Positions 59,172 to 63,914 of a stretch of 64,000 nt of DNA are shown piece after piece. The position numbers were made by a program, and so were the translations under genes. Under the pieces are notes generated by a model. It saw only the letters and a program-made list of their open reading frames with translations. It searched no databases and had not been told where the DNA came from. Source of the DNA: Sporomusa sphaeroides DSM 2875 (GTDB taxonomy: Bacteria > Bacillota > Negativicutes > Sporomusales > Sporomusaceae); contig NZ_CP146991.1 in the NCBI RefSeq assembly GCF_001941975.2, positions 3,593,001-3,657,000 of the forward strand, in the 5' to 3' direction. The number at the start of each line of letters is the position of its first letter. The stretch's first letter is position 1.

Positions 59172-59276
59172 TTATCTCGCCACCTTATCTATGAATATCA
59201 ATATGTCCTTCTTCAAAACCGAGTCTAGCAGGCCATTCTGAAAATAGTATGAAAAAGCAAATTTGCAAGTAATAAA

Positions 59277-59319
59277 AGGAAGACGACCTGAAGCGATATC
59301 GCTTCAGGTCGTCTTCCTT
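59277..59319 (-). terminator. Terminator after the PAS-AAA+ activator gene
   Basis: GGAAGACGACCTGAAGCG pairs with CGCTTCAGGTCGTCTTCC, a perfect 18-base stem; on the minus strand it is followed by TTTTATTAC. Confidence 0.9.
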
Positions 59320-59339
59320 TAGATCAAGTATACCAAAAT

Positions 59340-60761
59340 TTAATTACTACTAACTGATTCTTTTTTTAGCTTTGTCAGTTTGTAGGCAACACGATAGTAT
59401 TCTATATGATACCCTTGTTTCTGTAATTCTGCAGCAATTTTACGCGGTCCCAGTCCTGTTTTGTGGAGGCTTATAATTTTGGCATCAATGATATCATCAA
59501 TATCTCTGTCCACTTTTGTGCTTTGTTGCTGCCATAAATTCGACTCTACCATGGTCATCGGGATGTGTATGGCCTGCACCAGTACCCGGATTACCTCTTT
59601 ATCATCCTCCGGTAAGCTGCCTACCAAAGGAGCAGCTGCATCAATGCTCGCAAACACGACATCGCGGAATTGCCGGATATTCCGCTCATATTTTGCACCC
59701 AATATGATTTCTTTGGCCTGACCGGTAAAAGAGACTTGCAATTCAATACTGTTTCTTTCTTTAGCCCGGAGCATATACTGGCTTACAAATAAATTCAGCA
59801 GGGATTCCCGTTCTTCATTGCTGCGGTCACGCAGCGGCGGTATGTCAATTTGGTACTGAGCAAGGCGTTGATATAATTCCGGTAAAAACTCTTTCTTTAA
59901 ATCTTTACTTGATGCTGCAATAATAATCAAATCCAACTCGCGTTCGGTTCTTCCCCCCACTCTCCTGCTCATCCCGGATTCGATCAGTTTTAATAACATC
60001 GTTTGGTGCTGAACCAAAGTGTGGGCTTCATCTAAAAATAAAACCCCTTTGTCAGCCAATTCTACTAAGCCGGGTTTATCTATGGAGCCGGTATAAGCCC
60101 CTTTCTCTGTTCCGAACACTTCCATGGCAGCAATGTCCGAATTAATAAATTGCGCACAATTCACTTCAATAAAAGGGGCATCCGGCTTGATTACCTTAAT
60201 CTTCTTGGCAAAATAATACATGGCCTTGGCCAGCATGGTTTTGCCTGTGCCTGTTTCACCAAGGATTATGGAATGCCTTGGCCCGCCGATAGCGGCAATA
60301 CTCCGCTGCGCCTTGTCAATAACCCCTCTCAGGCTGTAGGACTTGCCAATAAAAACGTCAAATATATCGCTCACCTGACTGAGTATCAGTTCAATTTCCA
60401 GGCTCTCCAGCCGGTTTGACAGCTCCTCAATCTCGGTTATATCACGAAAAGTGGCTACCCCGCCAAAAAAGGTTTCATGGAAATATACGGGAAAAGCGTT
60501 AGTAATAAAGGTGCGGCCATTGGCATGAGTAATTTTAACATCGCGCATAGATTTTTGCGTACTAATAACTTCTAATAAGGCAGCCCGGGAATAATACTGG
60601 GTAATATGTTTGCCAATCATCTCGGCCGGACTGCTGGCACAGGCATATTTTGCAGATGTTTTGTTTGCATAAACGAGATACCCTTCAGCATTGACGACAT
60701 TGACGCCTTCGGGCAGGTTGTCCAAAATGATTGTGTATAGTTCTGTCTTGTCAATCTGCAT
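59340..60761 (-). CDS. PAS-domain sigma-54-dependent activator (GAYTGS variant)
   Basis: Enhancer-binding protein of 473 residues. A PAS domain (1-115) senses a small molecule; AAA+ has Walker A GETGTGKT (168-175), the sigma-54 loop GAYTGS (221-226) instead of GAFTGA, and Walker B GVLFLDEA (239-246). The C-terminus (about 420-470) is not Fis-like but resembles a resolvase/Sin-type HTH (LGPRKIAAELQKQGYHIEYY). Its expected targets are the two sigma-54 promoters at 62428 and 62664. AGAGG precedes ATG. It has its own transcript, being terminated before and after. Confidence 0.88.
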   Translation of the reverse strand: MQIDKTELYTIILDNLPEGVNVVNAEGYLVYANKTSAKYACASSPAEMIGKHITQYYSRAALLEVISTQKSMRDVKITHANGRTFITNAFPVYFHETFFGGVATFRDITEIEELSNRLESLEIELILSQVSDIFDVFIGKSYSLRGVIDKAQRSIAAIGGPRHSIILGETGTGKTMLAKAMYYFAKKIKVIKPDAPFIEVNCAQFINSDIAAMEVFGTEKGAYTGSIDKPGLVELADKGVLFLDEAHTLVQHQTMLLKLIESGMSRRVGGRTERELDLIIIAASSKDLKKEFLPELYQRLAQYQIDIPPLRDRSNEERESLLNLFVSQYMLRAKERNSIELQVSFTGQAKEIILGAKYERNIRQFRDVVFASIDAAAPLVGSLPEDDKEVIRVLVQAIHIPMTMVESNLWQQQSTKVDRDIDDIIDAKIISLHKTGLGPRKIAAELQKQGYHIEYYRVAYKLTKLKKESVSSN

Positions 60762-60854
60762 AGGATTTCATACCTCTCTACAAATTTTTTAACTCAACAT
60801 TCATCTGCAAACATACTCTTATTTACATTATAACATGACTTCAGGAAAACGTTT

Positions 60855-60895
60855 AAAATAAAACTGCAGCCCGCTTTAGGGCAGGCTGCAGTTTT
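60855..60895 (-). terminator. Terminator after the MFS gene
   Basis: AAAACTGCAGCC pairs with GGCTGCAGTTTT around a short loop; on the minus strand followed by ATTTTAAA. A TATAAT about 25 bases further downstream (60828-60833) is the probable -10 of the activator gene. Confidence 0.85.
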
Positions 60896-60932
60896 TCTTC
60901 ATTATCCGGCCAAAGGCAGTGGTTCTACCTAC

Positions 60933-62255
60933 TTACCTCTTGTCAGTTTTTAACGATTCAGCGGCAGCTTCCTTTTTGGGGATTGCCAGCACCGAAATGG
61001 TACAGAGAATAGCGAAGGTGGCTAAGAAATACATGCCGGCATTGGTCGAGCCTGTGGCATCTTTCAGGAAGCCAACCATATAGGGCCCGAAGAAACCGCC
61101 CAAGTTCCCCACCGAGTTAATAATAGCTATGCCGACAGCGGCGGTTGCTTCTGACAGGTACATGTTCGGCAAGCTCCAGAAGGTGCCGACAAACGCGTAG
61201 ATGCCCATCTGGCTTATGCACAACAGCAGCATAGAGACTGCCAGATTATTGGTCATGGTTAGCGCAATCAATCCGAAGAAGGCCAGTACCATCGGCAAGG
61301 CTGTATGATACCGGCGTTCCTGGGTGGCATCAGACCGTTTGGCAACATACACCATGGCGATTATGGCACATATATACGGGATGGTGGAGATTAGGCCGAT
61401 ACCGGACAGACTCATGGCCTGTGCCAAACCTTTCAATATCTGCGGCATCCACATGCCAAGACCATAGAGGGCAAGCACATAGCAGAGATAGCAGAAGGCC
61501 AGGTGCCACACGCGGCCGTTTTTGAATACTTCCCACTTACTGGCGACTTTGACTTTTAATTGCTTGGCTACATGCTCACGCTCTAATTCCGCAACCAGCC
61601 ATGCTTTTTCTTCGGCAGTCAGGAATTTGGCCTGGTCTGGCCTGTCCACCATGACAAACAAGGTGACAAACCCCAGGATAACGGCAGGCAAGCCTTCCAG
61701 GATGAACATCCAGCGCCAGCCGGCCATTCCCATCCAGGTAACATTCTCCATAATCCAGGAGGAGATTGGGCCAACTATGATATTGGCCAGGGCCATACCG
61801 CACATAAACAGCGACATGGTTTTGGCAAAATGCTTTGTCGGAAACCAAAAGGTAAAATAGAGGACAATACAAGGATAAAAACCCGCCTCAGCAGCCCCTA
61901 ATAAGCCACGCAGGATGGCAACATGGGTAACATTTTGAGCCCATGCCAGCAGAACAGTTACCAGCCCCCAGCTGATAAGAATTCTGGCAATCCATTTGCG
62001 GGCCCCCACTTTATGCATAATAACATTACTGGGAACTTCAAAAAAGAAATACGTAATAAAGAAAATACCTGCCAGCATACCGAACATGCTTGCACTGATC
62101 CCCAAGTCCTTGTTCATTTGCAAAGCGGCAAAACCGATATTAACCCGGTCCAGCATAGCAACAATGTACAGCAGCATGACATACGGTACAAGCTTCCACC
62201 GTATTTTACTCATTAGCTGATTTTCACGTTCTTCGCTCAACTGTATAGTAGCCAA
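60933..62255 (-). CDS. MFS transporter, ACS family, under sigma-54 control
   Basis: Twelve-helix organic anion:proton symporter of 440 residues. The signatures MLDRVNIGFAALQMNKDLGIS, MHKVGARKW and LLGAAEAGFYPCIVLYFT are those of the ACS family, and the sequence is collinear and highly similar to the carrier at 18417-19745. The start is TTG 62255 with GGAGGTGTACTAAT upstream. A perfect -24/-12 element lies 170 bases upstream. Divergent from the glycolate-oxidase-like operon, whose substrate it probably imports. Confidence 0.92.
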   Translation of the reverse strand: MATIQLSEERENQLMSKIRWKLVPYVMLLYIVAMLDRVNIGFAALQMNKDLGISASMFGMLAGIFFITYFFFEVPSNVIMHKVGARKWIARILISWGLVTVLLAWAQNVTHVAILRGLLGAAEAGFYPCIVLYFTFWFPTKHFAKTMSLFMCGMALANIIVGPISSWIMENVTWMGMAGWRWMFILEGLPAVILGFVTLFVMVDRPDQAKFLTAEEKAWLVAELEREHVAKQLKVKVASKWEVFKNGRVWHLAFCYLCYVLALYGLGMWMPQILKGLAQAMSLSGIGLISTIPYICAIIAMVYVAKRSDATQERRYHTALPMVLAFFGLIALTMTNNLAVSMLLLCISQMGIYAFVGTFWSLPNMYLSEATAAVGIAIINSVGNLGGFFGPYMVGFLKDATGSTNAGMYFLATFAILCTISVLAIPKKEAAAESLKTDKR

Positions 62256-62427: not shown

Positions 62428-62443
62428 TGCAATTTTCGTGCCA
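62428..62443 (-). promoter_or_regulatory. Sigma-54 promoter of the MFS gene
   Basis: Minus strand TGGCACG-AAAA-TTGCA (62443 down to 62428). GG and GC are spaced as required (-24/-12) and all consensus positions match. Confidence 0.85.
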
Positions 62444-62538
62444 AACCTACACTGAGTCAAAGTAGTTACAAAAACCCTTGTTTTTACAGCAATTTAGCAC
62501 TGCTCTTACTGTAATCAATGTTATATTTTTCTGAATAT

Positions 62539-62577
62539 TGTTATAAAACCTGTTAGTGTCTAACAAGTTTTATAACA
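62539..62577. promoter_or_regulatory. 39-base dyad, probable enhancer for the PAS-AAA+ activator
   Basis: TGTTATAAAAC (62539-62549) and GTTTTATAACA (62567-62577), with inner TGTTAG/CTAACA, centred at 62558. It lies about 95-105 bases upstream of both sigma-54 promoters, the usual place for an activator site serving both. Confidence 0.7.
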
Positions 62578-62663
62578 GCAACACACAAAAAAGGCTACTG
62601 GCACACAGGCAAAGCAGCCACCCGCTCGGGCGCTAACCAAACTCCTTACTCCTCCTCCATGTA

Positions 62664-62679
62664 TGGCACAATTTTTGCA
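62664..62679 (+). promoter_or_regulatory. Sigma-54 promoter of the GlcE/F-like operon
   Basis: TGGCACA-ATTT-TTGCA at 62664-62679, again a full -24/-12 match; transcription would start near 62691, about 60 bases before the ATG. Confidence 0.85.
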
Positions 62680-62753: not shown

Positions 62754-63914
62754 ATGAATGTTAGCAAAACAGTAGCTATTGCCAGCAGCGAACAGCTCCA
62801 AAACATATTCCGGCAGGCTCAGCAAGAGAAAAACCCGGTCTATCTGTACCGCAAACCAGGTGATTATGGTATTAGCCTGGATCTAAGCAAATGGAATGAA
62901 GTGGAAGAGTTCGATGTTGACAACTTAATGATTATTGTACCACCGGGAATTCTCCTTAGAGAACTCAATGAACTTGTAACTGCCAAAGGGCTGCGCTTTA
63001 TTCCGGCTGATTCACCCTATCTGGCTGGTCTGAGTGTCGGCGAGTGGGTCTATCGGGGCTGCCCGAATTTGTCGTCCTGGAAATATGGGGCAGGTAAACA
63101 TTTTTTGCTTGGCTCCAGTTATGTATTTCCCAATGGAGAAATAACAGACGTTGGCGGCAAATGTATCAAAAACGTAAGCGGTTATGACCTGACACGCTTT
63201 TTGGCAGGCGCTTATGCCGATTTTGCCGTTGGTGTTCGCTTTGTATTGAAGCTTATGCCACAGCCGGCCTGCCGGCGGTGTTATGATGTCGCCATCAGCT
63301 CCCTGGCAGACGTGAACCGGCTTGTCAGCGCCTTGCACTCGCAGCCTGTGCCGCCGGCTTGGTTATACTGGGCCGACGCGGCAGCCGGCAGTCAGCTTTT
63401 TGCGCAGCAGCAAGCGGCGCACCGGATCATCTTTGAACTGGATGGCAATGCAGCCGAGGTCAATGACTATGCTGCAGCCGTTGACAAGCTATTAATCGCC
63501 TGTAATGCGGAAAAAGCTGCTTTGCTAACCGCGCTGCCTGATGTCTCACAGCTGGAGGAGCAGGCAGCAGGCTTCTGGCTGCTTGATGAATTTAAAGTTC
63601 CCTATCCTGCTATCAGTGAATTTGCTGAAAAGGTAACAGCAGCCTTAGCGGAATTTCATTGGAACGGCGGGCTTTTTGGCCAGCTGGCCAATGGAAAAAT
63701 CCATCTGTATGTGGAAAAAACCGACTCCCGGCTAAATAGCTTTATCGCCAGACTGCAAACAGAAGCTGCCGCCCTTGGCGGAGCGGCAAGCGGTAAATAT
63801 GAGCGGGTGTATGGTGATGGCGGCAGCGGCATTTTGGCTGTGATCGAAAAGAATTTTAAACAACAGCTGGATCCGGCCCAGATATTCAATCCGGCAGCAG
63901 AGGTGACAAAATGA
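62754..63914 (+). CDS. FAD-binding oxidase subunit, GlcE-like
   Basis: Protein of 386 residues with the FAD-binding PCMH fold seen in the N-terminal half of glycolate oxidase subunit GlcE. VPPGILLRELNELVTAKGLR (about 63-82) and FIPADSPYLAGLSVGEWV are the FAD-binding part; GKCIKNVSGYDLTRFLAGAY near 140-160 is the diagnostic second half. GlcE works with GlcD and GlcF to oxidise glycolate or other 2-hydroxyacids and pass electrons to a quinone or ETF. GCAGGAGGACAGT precedes ATG. The GlcF-like gene overlaps its stop. Confidence 0.85.
   Translation: MNVSKTVAIASSEQLQNIFRQAQQEKNPVYLYRKPGDYGISLDLSKWNEVEEFDVDNLMIIVPPGILLRELNELVTAKGLRFIPADSPYLAGLSVGEWVYRGCPNLSSWKYGAGKHFLLGSSYVFPNGEITDVGGKCIKNVSGYDLTRFLAGAYADFAVGVRFVLKLMPQPACRRCYDVAISSLADVNRLVSALHSQPVPPAWLYWADAAAGSQLFAQQQAAHRIIFELDGNAAEVNDYAAAVDKLLIACNAEKAALLTALPDVSQLEEQAAGFWLLDEFKVPYPAISEFAEKVTAALAEFHWNGGLFGQLANGKIHLYVEKTDSRLNSFIARLQTEAAALGGAASGKYERVYGDGGSGILAVIEKNFKQQLDPAQIFNPAAEVTK

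Follow-up and report, generated by a model that had tools for sequence, protein, structure and literature searches.

A single PAS-AAA+ activator very probably switches hydroxy-acid uptake and oxidation in Sporomusa sphaeroides through a conserved four-part site and a panB promoter

In Clostridiales, 39 groups of sigma-54 regulons controlled by PAS-type enhancer-binding proteins have been described (Nie et al. 2019, PMC6615313). These regulons have a one-component PAS-AAA+ activator encoded beside its targets, several upstream sites ~100-250 bp before the -24/-12 element, and targets in catabolism or fermentation. The same features recur at the locus described here, which lies in the window (the whole 64,000-nucleotide stretch of the Sporomusa sphaeroides DSM 2875 genome that we analyzed). 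Judged by the listed targets, none of the 39 regulons has those found at our locus, and neither Sporomusa nor Thermosediminibacter is mentioned in the text; relative to the groups it describes, the window system is marked by the half-site TTMTAACA and by a C-terminal helix-turn-helix (HTH) that is not of the Fis type. Within the genus, 5'-end sequencing has located SigL promoters of the form TGGCA-N6-TTGC in S. sphaeroides KIAC (PMC12456013); the promoter type is that of the window, and the available text describes the SigL regulon for betaine metabolism. Sigma-54 regulons with a PAS activator beside its targets and multiple upstream sites are known, whereas this activator group, with its own half-site and targets, is likely new.

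The initial annotation proposed two full, divergent -24/-12 elements, and both are present letter for letter as exact matches: TGGCACGAAAATTGCA in front of an MFS carrier gene (62428..62443, minus strand) and TGGCACAATTTTTGCA in front of glcEFD (62664..62679, plus strand). We classified a site as sigma-54-type if it fit TGGCAY-N5-TTGCW with GG and GC invariant, as both of these do. The stricter pattern TGGCACN5TTGCW matches only this pair in the 64 kb (0.15 matches expected; no shuffle contained two). Using the looser TGGCAYN5TTGCW, we located sites across the S. sphaeroides genome and then read them from the surrounding stretches; this identified 61 sites, compared with five for the reversed control, and together with the sigma-54 gene present in the genome it supports sigma-54 control. 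A second divergent sigma-54 pair in this genome (locus L104, 5103 on the minus strand and 5332 on the plus strand; 4518587 and 4518831 on contig C1 of G000, the S. sphaeroides genome) separates a gene for a sensor kinase/AtoC-like regulator from a CoA-transferase-thiolase operon and has no TTMTAACA.

The carrier (60933..62255, minus strand) resembles anion:cation symporters, based on HpaX and D-galactonate transporter models, and its gene has a TTG start after GGAGGTG. On the plus strand, the first gene encodes a GlcE-like FAD-binding subunit (62754..63914); glcF and glcD follow and extend past the window end to window-equivalent position 66600. The promoters were originally assigned to the carrier and a GlcE/F-like oxidase; both genes stand, but the oxidase operon begins with glcE and reads glcE-glcF-glcD. 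Judged by sequence, GlcEFD is a relative of the glycolate oxidase GlcDEF, and it has the three subunit folds (FAD-FAD-FeS) in common with the Escherichia coli enzyme; however, it differs in its operon order (E-F-D), in scores below the curated glycolate oxidase cut-offs (GlcE 78/284, GlcF 151/333, GlcD 473/568), and in having no glycolate-specific context. The closest GlcEFD orthologue, in genome G056 (70/76/81% identity), is preceded by genes for 4-hydroxy-2-oxovalerate aldolase and acetaldehyde dehydrogenase, both scoring above curated cut-offs. In another genome (G008, locus L142, 904-11760), GlcEFD relatives occur with 2-oxoacid:ferredoxin oxidoreductase, phosphate butyryltransferase, and butyrate kinase, a cluster that likely carries out ATP-yielding 2-hydroxyacid oxidation.

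A gene predicted to encode a PAS-AAA+ sigma-54 activator (bacterial enhancer-binding protein, bEBP) lies at 59340..60761 on the minus strand. Its AAA+ domain (PF00158, 3.7e-34) includes the Walker A motif GETGTGKT and a GAYTGS loop, a domain content that places it among the bEBPs. AlphaFold2 predicted a three-helix HTH at the C-terminus (pLDDT about 73-84 there), and this region gave a weak match to HTH_12; a Fis-type HTH (PF02954) was not matched in the protein at E 0.05, nor in the C-terminus at E 1. Fis-type HTHs occur in most, not all, bEBPs and are not a required feature. Orthologues with 47-77% identity keep the loop as GA[FY]TG[AS] and also keep the C-terminal HTH; the predicted HTH, taken with the conserved half-site, points to a DNA-binding domain for upstream sites. 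In a whole-genome search, these orthologues were found in Sporomusa malonica (77%), in four Negativicutes genomes including G013 and G020 (~60%), in Thermosediminibacter and two further Bacillota (52-54%), and in another Sporomusa (47%); an extra scan of contigs added one Negativicutes metagenome-assembled genome and no other new activator orthologue. The best full-length named match to the activator is PrdR (NF041552), at 1.4e-60 over the PAS and AAA+ domains. PrdR is the sigma-54 activator of proline reductase, with a DNA-binding domain and targets unlike those of the window protein, and with a score of 205 bits, far short of the cut-off (795), we rejected this assignment.

Genes neighboring the activator orthologues encode LarA racemases, GlcD/GlcF, TRAP carriers, 2-oxoacid oxidoreductases, and PanB; this context, together with IlvD, supports the 2-hydroxyacid theme that had been proposed for the locus. 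The activator gene was also said to follow the carrier gene. It does lie downstream, but a strong intrinsic terminator (60857..60896, minus strand; -27 kcal/mol for the stretch, z -7.3) stands between the two, and the activator gene probably forms a transcription unit separate from that of the carrier. A possible sigma-A -10 element of the activator gene (60827..60835, minus strand), TGTTATAAT, contains an exact half-site; since this one short match lies inside the element, autoregulation is conceivable. On the 3' side of the activator gene, the window has a very strong terminator hairpin with a perfect stem of 20 pairs (59275-59320).

Between the divergent promoters lies a 39-bp dyad (62539..62577), which bears out the near-perfect dyad previously noted about 100 bases from each promoter. 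Its 18-nt arms are complementary at 17/18 positions around a 3-nt spacer, and its center is 106 bp upstream of the -24 element on the glc side and 115 bp upstream on the carrier side. Even when three mismatches are allowed, the dyad sequence has no second match in the window; 17/18 arm pairing occurs at three places in the 64 kb and in none of 20 simulated windows. The dyad consists of four copies of an 8-bp half-site, TTMTAACA, in a > > < < arrangement, and would form a composite upstream site for the activator. The outer copies, TGTTATAA (62539..62546, minus strand) and TTATAACA (62570..62577, plus strand), are exact; of the inner copies, TGTTAGTG (62551..62558, minus strand) keeps the TGTTA core with two mismatches to TGTTAKAA, and GTCTAACA (62558..62565, plus strand) has one mismatch. 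The dyad had been regarded as a shared regulatory unit; this idea is retained in that the dyad is the activator's predicted upstream site, but the conserved unit is the half-site, not the 39 bp. That the dyad instead works as an RNA hairpin, be it a terminator or part of a leader, is extremely improbable: although both strands fold well (-16.5 and -20.2 kcal/mol; z -5.3 and -7.7), the dyad is upstream of both promoters and hence outside both main transcripts, and no T-run follows it. An Rfam search of 59-64 kb returned only chance miRNA-like matches on a terminator and none at the dyad.

A third sigma-54 promoter of the cluster precedes panB, ~3.9 kb past the window (approximately window-equivalent positions 67618-67603, minus strand), and has its own -24/-12 element and half-sites (TGTTAGAA...TTCTAACG). 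The module was initially described as self-contained; with panB, its third promoter, and the motif, the regulon instead extends beyond the divergent pair. We ranked k-mers in eight activator-linked sigma-54 promoters taken from other species only and located upstream of different genes. In this unbiased 7-mer count, TCTAACA/TTCTAAC ranked first (nine occurrences in six of the eight promoters, 0.28 expected), with TATAACA further down, among the next entries. Exact TTMTAACA occurred 15 times in foreign activator-linked promoters, compared with a shuffle mean of 0.32 (0/5000 shuffles as high); the motif was given this final form with the own as well as the foreign promoters in view, whereas the k-mer ranking used foreign promoters alone. 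A shorter pattern, CTAACA with a sigma-54 site at fixed distance, was rejected after giving several chance matches, the full half-site being more specific.

Within the S. sphaeroides genome, exact half-sites lie upstream of 3/61 sigma-54 sites, all three in the cluster (carrier, glcE, and panB); there are five upstream of these promoters and none upstream of the other 58, and with random labels these three of the 61 would be drawn once per 35,990 draws. Across 61 genomes, a half-site and a sigma-54 site at the proper distance coincide at 16 places (reversed patterns, 0), eight of them within activator-carrying clusters of G000, G005, G013, and G020. The dctP promoter of S. malonica shows the same > > < < layout as the dyad with a different inner spacing. 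Adjacent half-sites are mostly 9-12 bp apart, about one helical turn; their number and spacing differ among species, and exact copies are absent from some activator-linked promoters (those of G036/G054 and one in G013).

The initial annotation held that the dyad should be conserved upstream of orthologues. The half-site does recur beside activator orthologues, but it is absent in front of GlcEFD orthologues in three activator-free genomes (G056, G008, and G025), which also have no strict sigma-54 promoter there. The same absence of promoter and half-site holds for the GlcEFD orthologue of G054, where the activator is encoded elsewhere in the genome, and for a paralogous GlcEFD operon of S. sphaeroides. 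Since GlcEFD orthologues without the activator have neither promoter nor motif, the site goes with the activator rather than with the oxidase, and conservation among orthologues would mislead if judged by the oxidase. These comparisons also bear on whether the dyad might serve some unrelated repressor or activator, such as one of GntR or IclR type, and lie as its operator between the promoters only by chance. Operators of that kind are typically near-perfect palindromes placed between divergent promoters, and IclR-type genes adjoin some GlcEFD orthologues; yet wherever there is an activator orthologue, the half-site turns up again in front of different genes, it is missing from activator-free GlcEFD orthologues and from the 58 other sigma-54 promoters, and the cluster contains no GntR/IclR-type regulator gene, which makes an unrelated operator very unlikely. 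Comparison among promoters and genomes shows that the promoters and the motif are present, that the motif is tied to the activator, and that three promoters make up the regulon. We put the probability of this regulatory reading at about 0.9; with 2-hydroxyacid catabolism added as its theme, it is still highly probable, if slightly less so.

The panB-family gene (window-equivalent 67556-66705, minus strand) encodes a protein that scores above the equivalog cut-off for ketopantoate hydroxymethyltransferase (TIGR00222, 306 versus 207.6 bits) and keeps the metal- and substrate-binding D, D, K, and E of that enzyme (1M3U, 1OY0). It differs from biosynthetic PanB in its separate clade, in its ties to LarA, IlvD, and GlcEFD genes, and in its predicted sigma-54 control. 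Residues beside the catalytic ones are changed relative to panC-linked PanBs (ECVP to EGVP, DGQ to HGQ). PanBs that are linked to panC in relatives fall into a clade of their own (100/100), whereas the cluster PanB groups with IlvD-linked ones (99/99); with no panC or panD linkage and a position outside the panC-linked clade, it does not classify as a pantothenate-biosynthesis gene. Members of its clade adjoin IlvD-type dehydratases, LarA racemases, C4-acid-sugar kinases (DUF1537), and a carrier 93% identical to that of the window; they also adjoin activator orthologues in S. malonica and, following EBP-GlcD-GlcF, in G013 and G020, where contig ends cut the clusters.

The S. sphaeroides genome has seven PanB genes (PF02548; contig C1 at 46115, 601869, 602723, 616899, 3659774, 3882733, and 4016356), including one tandem pair and several near IlvD, LarA, DUF1537, PanE-like, or MttB genes. 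Other near-complete Sporomusa genomes mostly have five to seven copies, with G003 as an exception at zero, and most relatives outside the group have one; in both G003 and G015 we found no PanB, though panC is present. A paralogous module (L116, 55-7305; G000 C1 612055-619305) contains a PAS activator with a different C-terminus, a DUF1537 kinase, an IlvD dehydratase, a PanB (89%), and the carrier 93% identical to the window's, and it looks like a C4 sugar-acid pathway. In three Sporomusa genomes, a separate PanB clade is linked to MttB-type methyltransferase genes (L118 8290-9204, L153, and L160).

Beside panB lies an aminotransferase gene whose product resembles BhcA (aspartate-glyoxylate aminotransferase); as it has neither a sigma-54 site nor a half-site in front, we did not count it in the regulon. 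This resemblance, and the glycolate oxidase subunits that are the best named matches of GlcEFD, would fit glycolate oxidation, in which GlcEFD forms glyoxylate, the aminotransferase converts this to glycine, and PanB only makes ketopantoate. We consider this unlikely: all three subunits score below the curated cut-offs, the aminotransferase gene lacks the promoter and motif, glycolate is achiral, so that the linked LarA racemases would be meaningless, and a distinct PanB clade accompanies the activator in three arrangements.

For the steps from activator binding and inducer to substrate and PanB direction, we infer the following course. The PAS-AAA+ protein (59340-60761) would act as a one-component sigma-54 activator that binds TTMTAACA half-sites, with the four half-sites ~110 bp upstream of the divergent promoters serving as one enhancer for the carrier gene and glcEFD and the second half-site cluster serving panB. 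Its PAS domain would sense a signal, presumably a 2-hydroxy or 2-oxo acid; the activator would then hexamerize, and its GA[FY]TG[AS] loop would contact the polymerase, opening all three promoters. The carrier would import a 2-hydroxyacid and GlcEFD would oxidize it to a 2-oxoacid, most likely a 4-hydroxy-2-oxo acid. The PanB paralogue would then run opposite to the textbook reaction and split this acid, yielding a 2-oxoacid along with 5,10-methylene-THF that would enter the Wood-Ljungdahl pathway. 5,10-Methylene-THF is an intermediate of the acetogenic methyl branch. One chemistry would fit all contexts: a 4-hydroxy-2-oxo acid arises through an oxidase or a dehydratase and is then cut by a C-C lyase, which would be MhpE in G056 and PanB here.

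The panB gene looks recruited to break the acid down, and possible substrates are 2,4-dihydroxybutyrate, pantoate, and related acids. Gene context tentatively suggests a C1-releasing PanB step in which a 2,4-dihydroxy acid is oxidized and then split into a 2-oxoacid and methylene-THF; with similar reserve, a catabolic PanB might alternatively be fed by IlvD-type enzymes that dehydrate a tetronate to a 4-hydroxy-2-oxo acid. A LarA relative from S. termitida showed only poor activity on 2,4-dihydroxybutyrate (PMC11770544), which counts against this pathway. If pantoate were the substrate, it would be oxidized to ketopantoate and cleaved by PanB to 2-oxoisovalerate and methylene-THF. Ketopantoate is the textbook substrate of PanB, the catalytic residues are kept, and another PanB gene of the same genome adjoins genes for a PanE-like reductase and a LarA-like protein; however, the nearest PanB relatives adjoin IlvD dehydratases, whose expected products are unbranched 2-oxo-3-deoxy acids, and the pocket-flanking residues are unlike those of panC-linked PanBs, so that pantoate is an improbable substrate. 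PanB could also run here in the biosynthetic direction, as panC is present in the genome and no PanB gene adjoins it. In the literature searched, with limited coverage of subscription journals, we found no description of a catabolic PanB pathway, no paper on ketopantoate hydroxymethyltransferase together with 4-hydroxy-2-oxobutanoate, and none relevant to PanB in acetogens or to Sporomusa and pantoate.

The sigma-54 network of acetogenic Negativicutes has been poorly charted, and the present cluster contributes a new activator group to it, together with its target site and regulon. A dedicated, sigma-54-controlled PanB clade acting in the catabolic direction in Sporomusa and relatives might, at somewhat less than even odds, represent an unrecognized C1-releasing sugar-acid pathway. 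If the proposed role of PanB is correct, it would help explain the five to seven PanB genes in most Sporomusa genomes, and a vitamin-pathway enzyme would have become a catabolic lyase that releases C1 units for acetogenesis.
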